Part shown: one piece after another, positions 32,018-38,725 of the stretch
How the letters are laid out: each line of letters opens with the position of its first letter
Numbering within the stretch: the stretch's first letter is position 1
From: Prolixibacteraceae bacterium
GTDB lineage: Bacteria > Bacteroidota > Bacteroidia > Bacteroidales > Prolixibacteraceae
Reading direction: 5' to 3'
Length of the DNA stretch: 44,764 bases
Assembly (NCBI GenBank): GCA_009773765.1
Contig: WTWZ01000044.1
Location: 1-44,764 of the forward strand
Made by a program: the position numbers and the translations under genes
Notes under the pieces: generated by a model
Told to the model about the DNA's origin: nothing
The model's database searches: none
The model's input: the letters and a program-made list of their open reading frames with translations, nothing else

Positions 32018-32163
32018 GATGATTTTATTCTTTCCTGCAGATTTCCCCGGCTCTTTAGTTAAACCGTAAAAATACGCCCATAAAACACAACTCTTTGCGC
32101 GAAAAACACAAGGGAAAAAGTTTGCGAAAAGGTAAATTTACAAAATGATATTATTGAATTACA

Positions 32164-32197
32164 GGAGAATACCGAAAATCCTTTTTTACAGAGTAGG
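32164..32197 (+). ncRNA. Leader hairpin motif, copy 1 (before the ABM/MFS genes)
   Basis: GGA (32164) and TCC (32179) close a loop reading GAATACCGAAAA; after nine bases comes GAGTAGG (32191-32197). The same layout recurs four more times in this plus-strand gene cluster (34134, 35257, 35917, 37595). Here the third pair is A-T, where copies 2 and 3 have C-G. It lies about 150 bases before the first gene. Nothing else is seen in 32018-32163. Confidence 0.45.
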
Positions 32198-32201
32198 TTA
32201 A

Positions 32202-32339
32202 TTATTAAACCGGAAAGAAGATATAAAAGAAGTTATAGATTTTATACAAAACGATAAAGGCGGATTAAGGCTAAAACCCGACTGGGATTATCCTGAAGGA
32301 GAACGAAATCAAAGTTTTGAACAATGGATAAACGAATAA
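32202..32339 (+). pseudogene. 3' remnant of an unidentified gene
   Basis: A 45-codon frame without any usual start codon ends at the stop 32337-32339. It encodes a well-formed tail: DIKEVIDFIQNDKGG, then LRLKPDWDYPEGERNQSFEQ. The reading frame just upstream in another phase (from about 32130, ...ELQENTENPFLQSRLIIKPE) also looks protein-like, so this may be a frameshifted and truncated small gene. I do not recognise the family. Confidence 0.35.
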
Positions 32340-32350
32340 AAAATTAAATA

Positions 32351-32695
32351 ATGAAAAAGATTCAAATCACAGCAAAGTTTAAAATCCACGACGGTAAAGT
32401 GGAAGAGTTTAAAAAAATTGCAGCGCGATGTGTGCCTGTTGTAAAAGCAAATGAAACGGGTGCATTACAGTACGACTGGTATTTTAATCCGGGCGAAACG
32501 GAGTGTGTTGTCCGCGAAACTTATACCGATTCAAATGCAGTTCTGGCGCACCTCGGGAACGTGGGCGGACTACTGGGGCAACTTTTATCCTTGTCTGATT
32601 TTGAGGCTGAGATTTACGGAAAAATGTCGGAAGACCTGAAAAATGCGGTATCCGACTTGAATGTAAAAGTATATTCTTTTTACCAGGGGCTGTGA
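32351..32695 (+). CDS. Antibiotic-biosynthesis-monooxygenase (ABM)-fold protein
   Basis: A 114-residue protein with the ABM dimeric alpha/beta-barrel pattern: IQITAKFKIHDGKVEEFKKIA, then GALQYDWYFNPGETECVVRETYTDSNAVLAH in overview. The family includes monooxygenases that act on quinol or anthraquinol rings without cofactor, and stress-related proteins of unknown activity. It is the first gene of the plus-strand cluster, and its stop overlaps the GTG start of the transporter gene (GTGA), so the two are coupled. Confidence 0.82.
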   Translation: MKKIQITAKFKIHDGKVEEFKKIAARCVPVVKANETGALQYDWYFNPGETECVVRETYTDSNAVLAHLGNVGGLLGQLLSLSDFEAEIYGKMSEDLKNAVSDLNVKVYSFYQGL

Positions 32696-34068
32696 AAAAA
32701 TTAATTATCTATCGATTTCCTTCACTTTCAGAAAATGCAGTTTTGCGGTATCTTTCATTTTCTGCGCTCTACCTTGCTCAGGGCATTCCTGAAGGCCTGG
32801 TTATATTTGGCATTCCGGCATGGATGGCCATGAATGGAAAAAGTCCGGCTGAAATTGGCAGTTTCGCCGCAGTAGCTATTCTTCCATGGAGTTTTAAAAT
32901 TGTTGCCGCTCCATTGATGGACAGGTTTACGTACCTGCCAATGGGCAGAAGAAGGCCATGGATAATTTTCGGACAAACCGGTTTGATTGTCAGTTTCTTA
33001 TCGATGGCTTTTATTCCCGACCCTTTGAATAATTTAAATTTATTAATGATTGCCGCTTTTTCTGTCAGCCTGTTTAGCGTTTTTCAGGATATAGGAGTCG
33101 ATGGAATGGCCATCGATATTTTACCTGTCGATCAGCAGGCAAGGGCAAACGGTTTGATGTGGGGCTCCAAAACACTTGGCATTTCGGCTTCGGTTGCAGC
33201 GGGCAGTTTTATCATAAACACTTACGGTTTCTTTTATGCGATTTCAGCGTTGTCGTTCTTTGTATTACTGATAATGATTGTTCCGGTTTTCCTCAGGGAA
33301 CGTCCCGGCGAAAAAATAATGCCCTGGACAAAAGGTAAAACTTCGGAAATTTCGGGCAAGTTGCAATTGCACAGTTGGAGAGCTATTTTAAAAAGTCTTT
33401 ACCAGGTATTCTTCCTGCGGGTCAGCATTATTATGGGAGTGGCAGTTTTTAGCTACTGCATTGGCAGAGGCCTGATTAGGGCTGTGTTGCCGGTGTTTAC
33501 CGTCCAGGAACTTGGCTGGACAGATGTCAGCTATTCACAAACATTTGCCACTGTGAACATGATATCCGGAATCCTCGGAATGTTTGTAGCCGGCGCACTT
33601 ATCGACTTTTTTGGCAAAATCAGAATGATGACCATTTATTTACTCTGTTTAATTGGAGTTGTTTTGATAATGACATTGATGAAAAACTACTGGCAAAATG
33701 ATTTGGTTATTTATGGCTTTTTCGCTGGATTTTTTATTCTCGACACTTTTATAACCATTGCTGTTTTTGCCACCGCCATGCAGCTTTGCTGGAAAAGAAT
33801 TTCTGCAACGCAATTCACCCTTTTTATGGCAATTGCAAACCTGGGACTTGCTGCCGGGGCGAGATTGCTTGGCCCGTTAACCGAAAATCTGAACTGGGAA
33901 TATGTAATTCTCTCTGTAGTCATTTTTTCTTCAGTAATGTTGGTGTTAATCAGGTACATTCATTTCGACAGTCATCTGATAAAAGTAAACCGGCTGGAAG
34001 CGATGCAGCTGGCGAAAGATGATGAGGAATTAGTACCAGTGACTGAAAACATTAGGATAACAGCTTAA
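32692..34068 (+). CDS. MFS transporter
   Basis: A 458-residue membrane protein with about 12 hydrophobic helices. The region LMDRFTYLPMGRRRPWIIFG matches the MFS loop 2-3 signature in the form seen in AmpG/PucC-like and sugar-transporter branches. A GTG start at 32692 is used because it overlaps the ABM stop and precedes the first helix (VLRYLSFSALYLAQGIPEG). The substrate is unknown; AmpG-like muropeptide import is one option, uptake of the compound handled by the downstream enzymes another. Confidence 0.82.
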   Translation: MKKLIIYRFPSLSENAVLRYLSFSALYLAQGIPEGLVIFGIPAWMAMNGKSPAEIGSFAAVAILPWSFKIVAAPLMDRFTYLPMGRRRPWIIFGQTGLIVSFLSMAFIPDPLNNLNLLMIAAFSVSLFSVFQDIGVDGMAIDILPVDQQARANGLMWGSKTLGISASVAAGSFIINTYGFFYAISALSFFVLLIMIVPVFLRERPGEKIMPWTKGKTSEISGKLQLHSWRAILKSLYQVFFLRVSIIMGVAVFSYCIGRGLIRAVLPVFTVQELGWTDVSYSQTFATVNMISGILGMFVAGALIDFFGKIRMMTIYLLCLIGVVLIMTLMKNYWQNDLVIYGFFAGFFILDTFITIAVFATAMQLCWKRISATQFTLFMAIANLGLAAGARLLGPLTENLNWEYVILSVVIFSSVMLVLIRYIHFDSHLIKVNRLEAMQLAKDDEELVPVTENIRITA

Positions 34069-34116
34069 AAATCAATATAAAGTGGAAGCGGGAAACCACT
34101 CTAAAAACCGGCCTGT

Positions 34117-34161
34117 CCCGATCAGGTATCGGGGGCGAATCTGAAAAGCCATATTAGTAGG
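34117..34161 (+). ncRNA. Leader hairpin motif, copy 2 (before DUF3500), with an added upstream hairpin
   Basis: GGC (34134) pairs with GCC (34148) around GAATCTGAAAA, then AGTAGG at 34156. Directly upstream CCCGAT (34117-34122) pairs with ATCGGG (34128-34133), giving a second, GC-rich hairpin only in this copy. The 114-base gap between the MFS and DUF3500 genes holds nothing else except a small GTGG/CCAC hairpin near 34082. Confidence 0.5.
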
Positions 34162-34182
34162 AAAATTTAAAATTATGTTACA

Positions 34183-35238
34183 ATGAAAAAAACGTCTTTT
34201 CTGTCTGTCATTTTTCTCCTCTGTTTTGGCAATAGTTTTAGTCAATCCATTGAAGAAATCACCCCAGTAACCAACGATTTTCTGAAATCATTAAACGGGA
34301 AACAACTCCAGCAGGTAAGTTATGGGTTTAACGATTCTGCCCGAACGAAATGGACTAACCTGCCAGTGGGTATGGTTCCAAGGCCCGGAATAAAATATGG
34401 CGATTTATCTGCCGAAAGTAAAATCCGGTTTCACCATATTCTTACAACAGTTTTTAGTTCGCAGGGTTATTTAAAAACTACCAGTATTATGCAATTAGAC
34501 GATATTTTAAATGAAGTTATAGCAGATAAAAACAAAACTGGTAATTTACCTGATAAGAATTATGAAAGATTAAAAGATTTGCAATGGGGTTTTGAAAATT
34601 ACTATATATCACTCTGGGGAAAGCCGGGAGAAAACGATCCTTGGGGACTTAACTTTGGAGGGCATCACATTTCAATAAACTTAACCGTAAGTGGTGATGA
34701 ATTTTCGATAACACCCTTTTTCATTGGCTCTGATCCGGCCGAAGTACAGAATACAAAATACGCAGGAATAAGAGTATTGAGCAAAGAAGAAGATTACGGT
34801 TTTAATCTTATTAATTCCATGAACAAGGAACAGCAGTCAATTGCAACCATAAGCATGGACGTTCCCGGAGATATTATAACAAATCCAAAAAGTGACCAAC
34901 GCTTAACTGAATATTGGGGAATTAAAGCAAATAATCTTGATGGAAAACAAAAAGAAATTCTGGTTTTACTCATTAAAGAATACATAAAAAATCTTGAAAC
35001 AGAGAAATCTGCCAAATATTTATTAAAAATAGAAAAGTCAGGAATCGATAATATCTACTTTGCCTGGATTGGAGAATATGAACCTCAGAAACCTCATTAC
35101 TACATCATAAACGGCCCCGATTACCTGATTGAATATGATAATAAATCAGGAAATCATATACACGCTATCTGGCGCGAAAAGGGAAACGATTTTGGAGAAG
35201 ATATTTTAAAAGAACATTATCTGGAACACAAACATTAA
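34183..35238 (+). CDS. Exported DUF3500-family protein
   Basis: A 351-residue protein with a signal peptide (KKTSFLSVIFLLCFGNSFSQ) and DUF3500 features: VTNDFLKSLNGKQLQQVSY, WTNLPVGMVPRPGI, WGLNFGGHHISINLTV, FIGSDPAEV, and a C-terminal PDYLIEYDN with GNHIHAIWRE. The conserved His residues (GGHH, NHIH) suggest metal binding, but no activity is known to me. Its position between a transporter and a cytochrome c in an oxygenase-containing operon suggests a role in periplasmic oxidation of an organic substrate. Confidence 0.85.
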   Translation: MKKTSFLSVIFLLCFGNSFSQSIEEITPVTNDFLKSLNGKQLQQVSYGFNDSARTKWTNLPVGMVPRPGIKYGDLSAESKIRFHHILTTVFSSQGYLKTTSIMQLDDILNEVIADKNKTGNLPDKNYERLKDLQWGFENYYISLWGKPGENDPWGLNFGGHHISINLTVSGDEFSITPFFIGSDPAEVQNTKYAGIRVLSKEEDYGFNLINSMNKEQQSIATISMDVPGDIITNPKSDQRLTEYWGIKANNLDGKQKEILVLLIKEYIKNLETEKSAKYLLKIEKSGIDNIYFAWIGEYEPQKPHYYIINGPDYLIEYDNKSGNHIHAIWREKGNDFGEDILKEHYLEHKH

Positions 35239-35256
35239 CAAAAGGAATTTAAAAAG

Positions 35257-35284
35257 GGCGAATCCGAAAAGCCTTACGAGTAGG
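35257..35284 (+). ncRNA. Leader hairpin motif, copy 3 (before the cytochrome c gene)
   Basis: GGC (35257) pairs with GCC (35271) around GAATCCGAAAA; GAGTAGG follows at 35278-35284, 22 bases before the ATG. Nearly the same sequence as copy 2, including the AAAACTTAAAATTAT-like run after it. Confidence 0.5.
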
Positions 35285-35305
35285 AAAACTTAAAATTATA
35301 TTACC

Positions 35306-35905
35306 ATGAAAAGGAACAACTATTTCAACGCGCTTTTTGCAGTAACCTGTTTTGTGTTTATTGCAATATCCTGCACAAACAGCAATCAAAAACCAGCCGA
35401 AAACAATCCGGCAGTAAATGCAGTTTCTCCCGAAGCTATTGTAAAACGTGGGGAATACCTTGTAACCATCATGGGTTGCAACGACTGTCATTCACCAAAA
35501 AAAATGGGGCCAAACGGACCGGAAATTATTCCTGAACTGCTTTTGTCGGGATATCCATCGGACAGGCCAGTTGTTAAATTTAAAGATCCAATGATCAAAG
35601 AGGGTTTCGGCATGTTTTATCCCGACCTTACAGCAGCAGCCGGCCCCTGGGGTATTTCATTTGCGGCCAATTTAACCCCCGACCAATCGGGCATTGGCAC
35701 ATGGACCGAAGAACAATTCAAAAAGGCGCTCACACAAGGGAAATTTAAAGGAATTGACGGTGCACGTACACTTTTGCCCCCGATGCCCTGGTTTAACTTC
35801 ACGGTTTTAAAAGATGAAGATGTCAGTGCCATATTTGCCTACCTGAAAAGTATAAAACCGGTTGTTAATGTTGTTCCCCAGCCTATTCCACCGGACCAAA
35901 TGTAA
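35306..35905 (+). CDS. Lipoprotein cytochrome c
   Basis: A 199-residue protein with a signal peptide and lipobox (VFIAISC, Cys near residue 23), then a single haem c attachment site in IMGCNDCHSPKKMGPNG. Later Met-containing segments near MPWFNF could give the sixth ligand. The size and the EEQFKKALTQGK and DEDVSAIFAYLKSIKP parts resemble c-type subunits of sugar or alcohol dehydrogenases. It probably passes electrons in the periplasm from a neighbouring oxidase or dehydrogenase-type reaction, and is anchored to a membrane. Confidence 0.88.
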   Translation: MKRNNYFNALFAVTCFVFIAISCTNSNQKPAENNPAVNAVSPEAIVKRGEYLVTIMGCNDCHSPKKMGPNGPEIIPELLLSGYPSDRPVVKFKDPMIKEGFGMFYPDLTAAAGPWGISFAANLTPDQSGIGTWTEEQFKKALTQGKFKGIDGARTLLPPMPWFNFTVLKDEDVSAIFAYLKSIKPVVNVVPQPIPPDQM

Positions 35906-35916
35906 AAATAATAAAA

Positions 35917-35946
35917 CGGGGAAAGCCGAAAACCGATCAGAGTAGG
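35917..35946 (+). ncRNA. Leader hairpin motif, copy 4 (before the tandem ABM-fold gene)
   Basis: CGG (35917) pairs with CCG (35933) around a GGAAAGCCGAAAA loop; GAGTAGG follows at 35940-35946, 17 bases before the ATG at 35964. The stem bases differ from copies 1-3 but remain paired. Confidence 0.5.
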
Positions 35947-35963
35947 CAATAAAAACAAATACA

Positions 35964-36626
35964 ATGAAAAACAACAAATTTTTCTCAGTAATGACATTAA
36001 CAATTGCCTTGTTTTCGGTGGCTGTTGTTTGTAAAGCACAAATTCCTGCCTCACCTTTTAATGTGGTGGAAATATCGCATACAATAAAAGATTATGCCGT
36101 ATGGAAAAAGGCTTTCGATGCCGATGAATTCAATCGGAAAGTAAGTGGGCTCAATTTTATCGTTATAGGCAGAAGTAATGAAAACCCGAACAATGTAACC
36201 GTTGTCTTACATGCTTCAGATGTAGCAAAGGCAAAAACTTTTTCGGCTTCCCCAAAACTAAAAGAAGTAATGGAAAAAAACGGCGTGATTTCAAAACCCG
36301 AATTTAACTATTATAAGGTAATCAGGATTAACACTGATTCAAAAGAAACCAGTTGGGTACAGGTAACTTACAAGGTAAAAGATTTTGATGCCTGGCTAAA
36401 AGTTTTTGATGCAAATGGAAGAACTGCCAACAGAGCAGCTCAGGGCTTAATTGATGTGGTTTTGGCGCGAGGTATTGACGACCCGAATATCGTACATCTT
36501 GTCTTTGATATAAAAGACATGGCTAAAGCAAAAGCATATATGACTTCGGATGAAACGAATAAATTGAGGATTAGCGCAGGGATGATCGGTTCGCCAAAAA
36601 TTGAGTTTTATAACACAGCAGAATAA
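35964..36626 (+). CDS. Exported protein with two ABM-like domains
   Basis: A 220-residue protein with a signal peptide (LTIALFSVAVVCKAQ) and two repeated domains of ~90 residues: HTIKDYAVWKKAFDADEFNR ... NNVTVVLHASDVAKAKTF and YKVKDFDAWLKVFDANGRTA ... NIVHLVFDIKDMAKAKAY. The 88-residue protein at 37649 is a third, single copy of the same domain. The dimeric alpha/beta-barrel pattern links it to ABM or similar small-molecule-binding folds. Function unknown; it is exported, unlike the single-domain protein. Its stop directly precedes an ATG, but the dioxygenase starts further on. Confidence 0.78.
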   Translation: MKNNKFFSVMTLTIALFSVAVVCKAQIPASPFNVVEISHTIKDYAVWKKAFDADEFNRKVSGLNFIVIGRSNENPNNVTVVLHASDVAKAKTFSASPKLKEVMEKNGVISKPEFNYYKVIRINTDSKETSWVQVTYKVKDFDAWLKVFDANGRTANRAAQGLIDVVLARGIDDPNIVHLVFDIKDMAKAKAYMTSDETNKLRISAGMIGSPKIEFYNTAE

Positions 36627-36701
36627 ATGCAAAAGTTAAAAGCAAATACATCTGCATCAGGGATATTTACAACAACGATGCGAAAGAAAAGTAATTTTAA
36701 C

Positions 36702-37592
36702 ATGGAAAGAAGAACATTTTTAAAAGCCTCGGCTTTATCAGCTATTGCAGTAAGTGCAACTGGTTTTATCAGCTTCGCCGGCAACGGTTATGTTGGCGAT
36801 TGCGAAACAACCTCCGATATTTTAGGACCGTTTTACAGACCAGATGGTCCCATTCGAAATAACCTGGTTATCAAAGGCGAAAAGGGAGAATTGTTGGAAT
36901 TACTGGGTAAAATAAAACACCAGGACTGCACAACTCCGTACAAAAACGCAAAAGTAGAGCTTTGGCACTGCGATGGAAACGGCGTTTATGATAATACGTC
37001 AACAGATTTTAAATACCGCGGCACAACTTTTTCAGATGAAAATGGAAATTATTCGTTTCAAACCATTTTGCCGGTACCTTATGATGTTGGTAACGGGCAA
37101 ATACGACCGGCCCATTTTCACATGATGATTACTGCCGAAGGCTACCAACCGCTTGTTACCCAGCTCTATTTCAATGGCGACAAACACATAGAAAAAGATG
37201 CCTTTGCCAATTCTGAATTTGCCAAAAGAAGAATTCTGGAAATTACGGGATCAGATAAATCAAAGCAGGTTATTTATGATGTTTCAATGGCAAAAATAAT
37301 CCCAGCCGATCCCTCTGCAATTGACAAATTAACAGGCGTTTATGTTAATCAGGCCAATAAGGGTAAAACTAAAGAGTTTTTCAAACGGAATAATTCACTG
37401 TGGTTGAAAAATGGAGTTTTTGGCGAGGAATACCGCTATATCGGCAATAACACCTTCGAATATGCAGGAATGCCAGGTGGAATGTTTGAAACATACACTT
37501 TTGAGATTTCAGGTTCGGGTGCAATAAAATGCACATTAAATTACATGAACGAGAATAATGAAAAAGGCACCGTTGAGTTTGTGAAGGCATAA
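36702..37592 (+). CDS. Intradiol ring-cleavage dioxygenase-like protein
   Basis: A 296-residue protein with a Tat-like N-terminus (MERRTFLKASALSAIAVSATGF) and the protocatechuate 3,4-dioxygenase-type beta-sandwich. The iron ligands are visible as Tyr in NGVYDNT, Tyr in FKYRGTTFSDENGNY, and two His in RPAHFHMMI. The family opens catechol-like rings between the two hydroxyls; exported Bacteroidota versions are poorly characterised. The ATG at 36702 is chosen over 36627 because the twin-Arg signal starts there. The last ~90 residues (ITGSDKSKQ... and FEYAGMPGGMFETY) form an extra domain not found in the classic enzyme. Confidence 0.85.
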   Translation: MERRTFLKASALSAIAVSATGFISFAGNGYVGDCETTSDILGPFYRPDGPIRNNLVIKGEKGELLELLGKIKHQDCTTPYKNAKVELWHCDGNGVYDNTSTDFKYRGTTFSDENGNYSFQTILPVPYDVGNGQIRPAHFHMMITAEGYQPLVTQLYFNGDKHIEKDAFANSEFAKRRILEITGSDKSKQVIYDVSMAKIIPADPSAIDKLTGVYVNQANKGKTKEFFKRNNSLWLKNGVFGEEYRYIGNNTFEYAGMPGGMFETYTFEISGSGAIKCTLNYMNENNEKGTVEFVKA

Positions 37593-37594
37593 AA

Positions 37595-37624
37595 CGGGGA
37601 AAGCCGAAAACCGAAAAGAGTAGG
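37595..37624 (+). ncRNA. Leader hairpin motif, copy 5 (before the small ABM-fold gene)
   Basis: CGG (37595) pairs with CCG (37611) around the same loop as copy 4; GAGTAGG follows at 37618-37624, 24 bases before the ATG. Copies 4 and 5 are identical over 23 bases, which points to recent duplication or strong conservation. Confidence 0.5.
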
Positions 37625-37648
37625 CATTAAAATTTAAAGATTAAAAGT

Positions 37649-37915
37649 ATGGCAACATTCGTATTTCGTCACAAAGTAGGCGATTTTAAAAGATGGATCA
37701 AAGGACATCAGGATCGGGTAGATTTATTTGGCGATACAGTTTCAGGATTCAAAACATTTCAGGATGCAGATGATCCGAAATCAATAGTTATCGTTATGGA
37801 AGTCAATGATATTGAAAGGCTTGGAGCAATTATCAACGATCCAAAAAACCAGGCAGTAAAAGACAGACACACTGTACTTGAACCAATTACAATGTCAGTG
37901 CAGGTTGATGTATAA
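37649..37915 (+). CDS. Small ABM-like domain protein
   Basis: An 88-residue protein, FVFRHKVGDFKRWIKGHQDR, then DADDPKSIVIVMEVNDIERLG, matching one domain of the tandem protein at 35964. No signal peptide, so it should act in the cytoplasm. The fold suggests a dimer binding a small aromatic or lipid molecule. Located 6 bases before the desaturase gene. Confidence 0.75.
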   Translation: MATFVFRHKVGDFKRWIKGHQDRVDLFGDTVSGFKTFQDADDPKSIVIVMEVNDIERLGAIINDPKNQAVKDRHTVLEPITMSVQVDV

Positions 37916-37921
37916 TTTTCT

Positions 37922-38725
37922 ATGGAAACACTGAATAAATTATTGAGTATCGATTTGAATTACATCGTTATAGCTCTGTTCGTTGTTTTTTACTCTCTTG
38001 AACAGATTCTGGAGACACAGTTTAATTTCAAAAAAAGAGGACAGCATTTTTTTCACAGTGCCCTTTTTCAAATCGTGTTTCTCATCGGAAATCTGTTTTG
38101 GGCATCGGTTACTATTTTTAGTATCGAATGGCTGAACCGGAATGAAATTGGCCTTTTTTACTTAATCCAGTTGCCCGTTTGGTTAAAGCTTGTGCTGGGC
38201 GTGGCCATGATTGACATGGTAACTTACTGGTTTCACCGAATGTCGCATAAAGTTCCGGTGTTGTGGCGGTTTCACCGGGTGCATCACAGCGATACCACAA
38301 TGGATTCAACCACCTATTTCAGATCGCATCCTGTTGAAATCCTTTTCTGGTTTGGCTCTTCGAATATTCTGGCTGCCGGAATCTTTGGGCTCGATCTTTT
38401 AACACTGGGATTATATTTTCTTGTGGCCACTCCATTTTTCATTCTCGAACATACCAACCTGCGTTTTCCGGCATGGCTCGATAAAACATTGGGTCTGGTT
38501 ATAACAACACCCAACCTGCACAAAGTACATCATGAACAGGATCAGTATTATACCGATTCGAATTTTGCAGATGTATTTATTCTGTGGGACAGGCTATTTG
38601 GCACATACAAATACAAACCAGTGGAGCAGATTAAATTCGGATTAAAAGAATTTGAGGAAAATAAAAAGCAAACTTTCTGGTATTTGTTTATCAGCCCGCT
38701 TTTCAAAATAAAAAAAGTGACTTAA
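37922..38725 (+). CDS. Sterol desaturase/fatty acid hydroxylase-family membrane enzyme
   Basis: A 267-residue membrane protein with the three His boxes of the di-iron fatty acid hydroxylase superfamily: WFHRMSHKVPVLWRFHRVHHSD supplies HxxxH and HxxHH together, and LHKVHHEQ supplies the third. Several hydrophobic helices surround them. It hydroxylates or desaturates a lipid or sterol-like substrate using oxygen. It is the last gene of the cluster and no regulator is nearby. With the dioxygenase and cytochrome it suggests an oxygen-dependent pathway. Confidence 0.88.
   Translation: METLNKLLSIDLNYIVIALFVVFYSLEQILETQFNFKKRGQHFFHSALFQIVFLIGNLFWASVTIFSIEWLNRNEIGLFYLIQLPVWLKLVLGVAMIDMVTYWFHRMSHKVPVLWRFHRVHHSDTTMDSTTYFRSHPVEILFWFGSSNILAAGIFGLDLLTLGLYFLVATPFFILEHTNLRFPAWLDKTLGLVITTPNLHKVHHEQDQYYTDSNFADVFILWDRLFGTYKYKPVEQIKFGLKEFEENKKQTFWYLFISPLFKIKKVT

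Follow-up and report, generated by a model that had tools for sequence, protein, structure and literature searches.

A covarying loop-tail pseudoknot in DUF805b/DUF805-class RNAs of Bacteroidota and its probable place at translation initiation

What is the small hairpin that recurs five times in a single gene cluster of a Prolixibacteraceae bacterium, and what might it do there? The window analysed here is contig WTWZ01000044.1 (assembly GCA_009773765.1) at its full length of 44,764 nucleotides (nt). An earlier examination of its letters, the sequence-only reading, singled out five copies of a hairpin with a CCGAAAA-type loop, followed 4-9 nt past the stem by (G)AGTAGG; all five are where it placed them, with CTGAAAA instead of CCGAAAA in the loop of copy 2. 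These copies are genuine and far beyond chance: the pattern of CCGAAAA, 5-14 bases and GAGTAGG occurs four times in the window versus 0.01 expected, and none of 100 shuffles reached four occurrences. GAGTAGG alone is marginal (4 versus 1.14 expected, with 4 reached in 5 of 100 shuffles).

The copies are not, however, a new family, all of them matching, below threshold, a pair of sister families in Rfam, DUF805b (RF02914) and DUF805 (RF03081), which belong to one clan, CL00115, and are both typed as cis-regulatory. To our knowledge, this is an orphan class with no assigned function; the founding description of DUF805b RNA is said to be Weinberg's, of 2017. Copies 1, 3, 4 and 5 resemble DUF805b RNA in the hairpin, the CCGAAAA loop, the GAGUAGG tail and the occurrence in Bacteroidota. 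They match RF02914 significantly over positions 1-35 (E 8.9e-07 to 7.7e-05), and none attains its gathering score of 35.6 bits. Copy 2 shares with DUF805 RNA the extra upstream hairpin as well as the downstream half and so has both hairpins of RF03081, with a score below the 51.1 bits set for that family; copy 3 scores 42.2 bits against RF03081 at 35230-35290, yet the GTGG/CCAC hairpin is not visible there. We therefore file the window copies as DUF805b/DUF805-class RNA only, the curated score thresholds not having been reached. A scan of the window with Rfam at gathering threshold returned no family, and no tRNA or tmRNA was found in it. Thus, the statement that no known riboswitch is recognizable here holds as far as gathering scores go and fails in that the copies belong to a described class. 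A covariance-model search of Bacteroidota genomes, suggested there as a check, gave with the Rfam models many matches upstream of genes, with covarying stems. Comparison of the copies likewise shows that the stem (P1) varies and remains paired, and compensatory changes in the stem of the aligned hits support the conserved RNA structure that had been proposed.

The fold appears to extend beyond this hairpin. The loop bases xCY, where x is the base three before GAAAA, seem to pair with the tail bases RGx' directly after GAGTA, where x' is the third base after that word, so that loop and tail would form a second helix, P2, and the whole an H-type pseudoknot. This is new with respect to the Rfam consensus lines returned by cmscan, in which these positions are unpaired and neither a pseudoknot nor any tail pairing is drawn; because of this, the search model did not impose the loop-tail pairing on the sequences that it retrieved. 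The 182 model hits yielded 175 distinct sequences that could be parsed when one mismatch was allowed in each 5-base anchor (six were identical repeats and one had no GAAAA loop word). Among these 175, x and x' are Watson-Crick partners in 151 (2000 shuffles gave a mean of 61.7 and a maximum of 88), and all four pair types occur (GC 84, TA 42, CG 14, AT 11); the middle pair is C-G in 171, and the Y-R pair is CG in 150, TA in 10, TG in 14 and CA in one. Restricting the comparison to 130 less related hits leaves 110 Watson-Crick x-x' pairs plus 5 GU (5000 shuffles, mean 44.0, maximum 63), and sliding x' by 1-3 bases leaves only 11-38 of the 130 paired; the middle pair is kept in 129 (+1) and the Y-R pair in 119 (+11; shuffles mean 108.6, maximum 115). 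In the 130-row alignment A4, 96.4% of the cells are paired in P2 and 86.6% in P1, sliding all partners cuts the paired total from 91.0% to 13-51%, and three of five whole-structure measures lie above all 500 shuffles. The exchanges can be followed even between the sister copies of the window, where x-x' reads A-U, U-A, U-A, G-C and G-C in copies 1 to 5. The hairpin alone is weak (median -3.0 kcal/mol). GAGTAGG, taken in the sequence-only reading for a separate signal, instead carries, as this covariation suggests, the 3' side of the pseudoknot. Candidate fourth and fifth pairs of P2 did no better than shuffles and were dropped.

The bases beside P2 barely vary: AGTA and AAAA are present in 175 of 175 sequences, and the G before AAAA in 172. 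GAA opposite AGUA, continuing a helix, is what we take to be the sarcin-ricin/G-bulge consensus, and exactly this arrangement continues P2 here, so far as sequence can tell, so that P2 probably runs into a G-bulge of the sarcin-ricin type. In one account of the motif family, the G-bulge together with a G/U/A triplet is its characteristic (PMC11426329).

In the DUF805 sister family (97 sequences found, 89 kept after filtering) the two inner pairs of P2 recur: the middle pair is formed in 84 of 89 (shuffle mean 78.5, maximum 83) as CG, TA or GC, and the Y-R pair in 65 plus 24 GU (mean 50.7, maximum 61). For these RNAs we also propose a second, 2-bp pseudoknot, in which the YC of the upstream hairpin loop NYCAG would pair within the CGR that precedes P1. 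Parsed in 86 of the 89 sequences, it has a Watson-Crick Y-R pair in 78 (72 CG, 6 TA; shuffle mean 67.9, maximum 76) and a C-G pair in 81 (79 CG, 1 TA, 1 GC; mean 76.4, maximum 80). In copy 2, whose upstream hairpin lies at 34082-34099, and in locus L046, the loop has CG, not YC, and the partner is CCG, not CGR, a further exchange. With respect to known DUF805 RNA this second short knot, like the scores below gathering, is a point of difference; with respect to DUF805b it is P2 and the tail pairing that depart from the Rfam consensus.

Where does this structure sit relative to the gene that follows? A stricter search gave 337 instances, 130 of them from loci selected by pattern. An open reading frame (ORF) with ATG start lies within 160 nt in the same sense in 323 of the 337, and in 271 the ATG is at 17-28 nt, with a mode of 22; leaving aside the pattern-selected instances gives 172 of 207 in that range, and a looser search (289 instances) shows the same peak. 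Position upstream of genes in Bacteroidota, as described for RF02914, is thereby found for the element at large, and in the window the distance, counted from where the RG ends up to the A of ATG, is 153, 21, 21, 17 and 24 nt for copies 1 to 5. Three loci (L080, L182, L225) carry a tandem pair of copies before a single gene, the second copy at 22-23 nt. Shine-Dalgarno (SD)-like 4-mers occur between tail and ATG in 10 of the 271 instances and are lacking in 261; the intervening stretch is AT-rich, with A at -3 (77%) and at -13 to -11 (72-80%). A similar A-rich pattern is reported among the initiation signals of Flavobacterium johnsoniae, where the region from -20 to +20 is also low in pairing (PMC6847099). 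An interval of about 22 nt should be too short to hold an intrinsic terminator, which makes transcription attenuation unlikely. The near-fixed distance makes likely what had been offered as a possibility, namely control of translation.

The element is widespread in the phylum. With the window genome and 60 relatives, DUF805b was detected in 40 of 61 genomes at E <= 1e-3 versus 0 of 14 controls; across the phylum it is present in at least 96 of 395 genomes at E <= 1e-5, in at least 76 of them above the cut-off, with up to 15 matches in one genome. Within the order, 112 of 295 genomes had DUF805 at E <= 1e-5, as did one of 14 controls, a Bacteroides. A 21-base pattern run against one genome per species (84,980 species) found at least 117 stretches; among the 80 matches listed, 78 are Bacteroidota by name, one is 'Chlorobi' and one an unnamed bacterium. 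The window genome itself (4.27 Mb, 118 contigs) has 17 DUF805b-model matches at E <= 10, seven of them judged convincing: the five window copies (copy 2 by its DUF805 score), clustered in one 5.5-kb operon, a copy on contig C63 that at 47.5 bits exceeds the RF02914 gathering threshold, and one on contig C90 (32.1 bits), where the ORF below the copy is small, lipoprotein-like and, by eye, similar to the TRL family. The element is also carried by phage contigs. Two scans of IMG/VR contigs found 80 and 11 stretches with it (L395-L485), and in the 93 viral instances the ATG is at 19-23 nt in 56, at 24-31 nt in 10 and at 4-12 nt in three. Of 55 non-redundant viral downstream proteins, 41 (spacing 4-37 nt) were scanned: ParB-like PHROGs were hit seven times, DNA-methyltransferase PHROGs seven times (possibly in the same proteins) and an HU-type DNA-binding family once, and GG-leader-like peptides also occur downstream. 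One viral locus was compared with named phages, and no match was found.

The genes below the cellular copies are diverse. We scanned 149 of 163 non-redundant downstream proteins from model-selected loci and all 112 from pattern loci; the counts that follow (model plus pattern loci) are taken from the top 25 families listed per scan, Pfam being applied at E <= 0.01 without curated cut-offs. Largest among the Pfam groups are DUF6520 (9 + 8), TRL (6), DUF805 (4 + 2), the Por secretion tail (4 + 1), OMP_b-brl (2 + 2) and PixA, DUF2589, DUF4440 and SnoaL_2 (3 each); among NCBIfam models there are 'bacteriocin-like' leaders (9 + 1), CCPGW bacteriocins (4 + 1), class I lanthipeptide leaders (5 and 2) and pinensin (1), models that may overlap, and radical S-adenosylmethionine (rSAM) peptides of the ribosomally synthesized, post-translationally modified kind (RiPP; 2). 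Export-signal-like N-termini are enriched: a crude rule assigns them to 97 of the 143 proteins below a copy that have at least 100 residues, versus 213 of 485 sampled other ORFs (P 6e-7). By a mechanical count that includes the window copies and takes in a few copies kilobases apart, more than one gene is preceded by a copy in 28 of 290 loci. One locus (L181) has six same-strand copies; a small-peptide ORF begins 22-26 nt after each of them, and several of these ORFs have a GG-leader-like site.

Could one mechanism accommodate these findings? We consider it likely that the element acts on translation, and propose, with a probability of roughly 0.55, that it is a cis-acting switch of translation initiation set by a metabolite or a protein. 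Each copy would then be a DUF805b/DUF805-class RNA working on the gene directly below it. In the mRNA, the P1 hairpin of 3-5 bp would form first and the loop xCY would pair with RGx' downstream of GAGUA to close the H-type pseudoknot, the second helix extending into the probable G-bulge (GAA opposite AGUA). The knot would end about 22 nt before the AUG, at what should be the upstream edge of the region occupied by the 30S subunit in mRNAs devoid of SD sequences. Because P1 and P2 are both short, the knot might be set by a shared signal acting in trans, be it a metabolite or an RNA-binding protein, that stabilizes or releases it, either direction of effect being conceivable; the state of the knot would change 30S access gene by gene and so co-regulate accessory, often exported, genes.

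Several observations weigh against this scheme, or against parts of it. On the side of the fold, two of the five measures on alignment A4 fall within the shuffles (pairs with two-sided changes are equalled in 113 of 500, further pair types in 35 of 500), the shuffle controls keep the relatedness among sequences, the middle pair of P2 is nearly constant in DUF805b, one of the 182 model hits has no GAAAA loop and could not be parsed, and the outer x-x' pair is not supported in DUF805, with 22 of 89 Watson-Crick (shuffle mean 17.0, maximum 24). On the side of the position, 52 of the 323 ORF-bearing instances lie outside 17-28 nt, copy 1 precedes the first annotated ATG by 153 nt, and among the viral instances 19 of 93 are at 37-176 nt and 5 of 93 lack an ORF within reach. 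No single metabolic theme unites the genes, which is unusual for a metabolite riboswitch, and we know of no reported ligand, protein partner or expression change for the element.

Furthermore, a constitutive enhancer of translation would explain the spacing equally well and the phage carriage perhaps better. Here the knot would dock at a set point of the 30S platform and bring in ribosomes for accessory and mobile genes without sensing any signal, SD pairing not being in use in this phylum. The tight distance to the ATG, the similar spacing in viral contigs before ParB-like and DNA-methyltransferase genes, and the diverse, partly mobile gene set all agree with such a role, and there are precedents for structured mRNAs by which the ribosome is met or recruited (PMC3858243, PMC9410914). 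Structure in the initiation region, however, usually inhibits initiation (PMC6847099), and the AAAA and AGTA core, invariant as it is, looks more tightly constrained than simple docking would require. We regard this explanation as a serious competitor that we would nevertheless not bet on; it was judged separately from action on translation and from the switch, and the three estimates overlap and do not sum to one.

Other explanations fare far worse. An element of mRNA processing or stability, that is, an RNase site or a 5' protector separating cistrons, would suit a small folded RNA located in the gaps between cistrons, but by itself would leave unexplained why the ATG follows at about 22 nt, and does so in many viral contigs as well, and we find it improbable. 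Least probable of all is an element of the DNA (a part of a promoter, an operator or a dispersed repeat with a chance inverted repeat), to which the several copies per genome and in one operon, the strict word GAGTAGG and a modest rise of TAnnTTTG boxes at -30 to -11 (16 boxes in 232 upstream regions) might point, against the compensatory changes in P1 and P2, the same-sense ORFs within 160 nt, the 43 of 306 instances (those with more than 700 nt of upstream sequence) in which a same-strand ORF ends no more than 60 nt upstream, and the presence of a TAnnTTTG box in -120 to -5 in only 40 of 232 upstream sequences that have no close co-directional ORF. Transcripts beginning immediately upstream of the element would account for that rise just as well; a promoter box at a single fixed distance was considered and given up, the modest rise being all that was found.

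Comparison with known systems helps to delimit the switch that we favour. The Csr/Rsm regulon, in which hairpins near starts mediate post-transcriptional control of exported and competition products, is similar at the level of the gene set; the element is not a Csr/Rsm target, in so far as CsrA was found in none of the 61 genomes (the window's and 60 relatives, E <= 0.001) by a search that was positive in 3 of 14 controls. The preQ1-I riboswitch is likewise a small knot of short helices; it shares no sequence with the present element, has no 5-nt loop between its helices, and its SD lies partly in the knot, whereas here there is none. The preQ1 RNA is a pseudoknotted translational riboswitch near the translation start (PMC9410914). 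The glutamine riboswitch combines a loop E motif with a pseudoknot (PMC12510878), but has a three-way junction and a 1-bp pseudoknot, and differs in architecture and genes. By titles and the beginnings of abstracts, the open-access collection searched yielded no paper on DUF805 or DUF805b RNA, and 'DUF805' is absent from the main text of PMC8040213; in PMC9723704, the passages that deal with 5' cis-regulatory RNAs in Flavobacterium psychrophilum mention Flavo-1 and not the DUF805 class.

Within the window (Table 1), the genes that have no copy of their own overlap or closely follow a neighbour when the longest ORF is taken as the gene. The rule of the sequence-only reading that every gap of more than 50 bases has a copy stands with these starts and breaks down if the intradiol dioxygenase begins at 36702, leaving a 75-nt gap that has none; this internal in-frame ATG, followed by what looks by eye like a twin-arginine-like N-terminus, may be the true start. 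Between copy 1 and the first annotated gene there is a 45-codon open frame on the forward strand (32202-32336) that contains no ATG, GTG or TTG and has an in-frame ATA codon 25 nt past the copy; one weak match was found in one of 60 relatives (E 0.001, 41% over 29 residues), so that a conserved small gene is not clearly indicated, and the frame may represent a small gene, degenerate or with a start other than ATG, or a chance occurrence. Copy 5 is retained before orthologues of the 88-residue gene in four relatives (55-57% protein identity) in which the flanks diverge, and, by eye, in a Mariniphaga bin as well; the gene below copy 4 has a homologue in a Chitinophagales bin (L175) that is 53% identical and likewise follows a copy of its own.

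Table 1. The five RNA copies and the genes of the operon in the window (P1, stem; loop and tail, the three-base segments of the putative P2).
Feature	Positions	Strand	Remarks
Copy 1, DUF805b-like	32162-32199	+	P1 AGGA/TCCT; loop ACC (32171-32173), tail GGT after GAGTA; RF02914 33.9 bits, E 8.9e-07, gathering 35.6 not reached
Antibiotic-biosynthesis-monooxygenase-like protein	32351-32695	+	PF03992, 2.7e-07; first annotated gene after copy 1
MFS transporter	32692-34068	+	PF07690; overlaps preceding gene; no copy of its own
Copy 2, DUF805-like, two hairpins	34077-34167	+	Upstream hairpin GTGG/CCAC, 34082-34099; downstream half: P1 GGC/GCC, loop TCT (34140-34142), tail GGA after TAGTA; RF03081 39.4 bits, E 1.3e-04, gathering 51.1 not reached; RF02914 15.9 bits, E 0.16, 34132-34163
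DUF3500 protein	34183-35238	+	PF12006, 7.5e-89; after copy 2
Copy 3	35255-35286	+	P1 GGC/GCC; loop TCC (35263-35265), tail GGA; RF02914 29.6 bits
Cytochrome c	35306-35905	+	PF00034, 8.8e-06; after copy 3
Copy 4	35916-35948	+	P1 CGG/CCG; loop GCC (35925-35927), tail GGC; RF02914 28.2 bits
DUF3764-like protein	35964-36626	+	PF12594, 1.1e-06; after copy 4
Intradiol dioxygenase	36627-37592	+	PF00775; no copy
Copy 5	37594-37626	+	P1 CGG/CCG; loop GCC (37603-37605), tail GGC; RF02914 33.2 bits
88-residue protein	37649-37915	+	No Pfam match; after copy 5
Fatty-acid hydroxylase family protein	37922-38725	+	PF04116; 6-nt gap, no copy

What, then, would the finding mean for the Bacteroidota? A bolder, tentative possibility, for which the odds seem to us somewhat unfavourable, is that DUF805 and DUF805b are a single widespread, phage-borne module, made of P1, a three-pair P2 and a G-bulge of the sarcin-ricin type, that would act on the ribosome during initiation from a constant position relative to the AUG, as a structured substitute for, or a gate on, initiation in SD-poor Bacteroidota, and around which a regulon would centre that takes in bacteriocin-like, exported and phage accessory genes. 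The revised fold with its three testable loop-tail pairs, the spacing rule and the list of targets make an orphan class directly testable. They bear on the ways in which Bacteroidota adjust initiation when Shine-Dalgarno pairing is absent, and on the question of what brings bacteriocin-like peptides, exported proteins and phage genes together under a single RNA.

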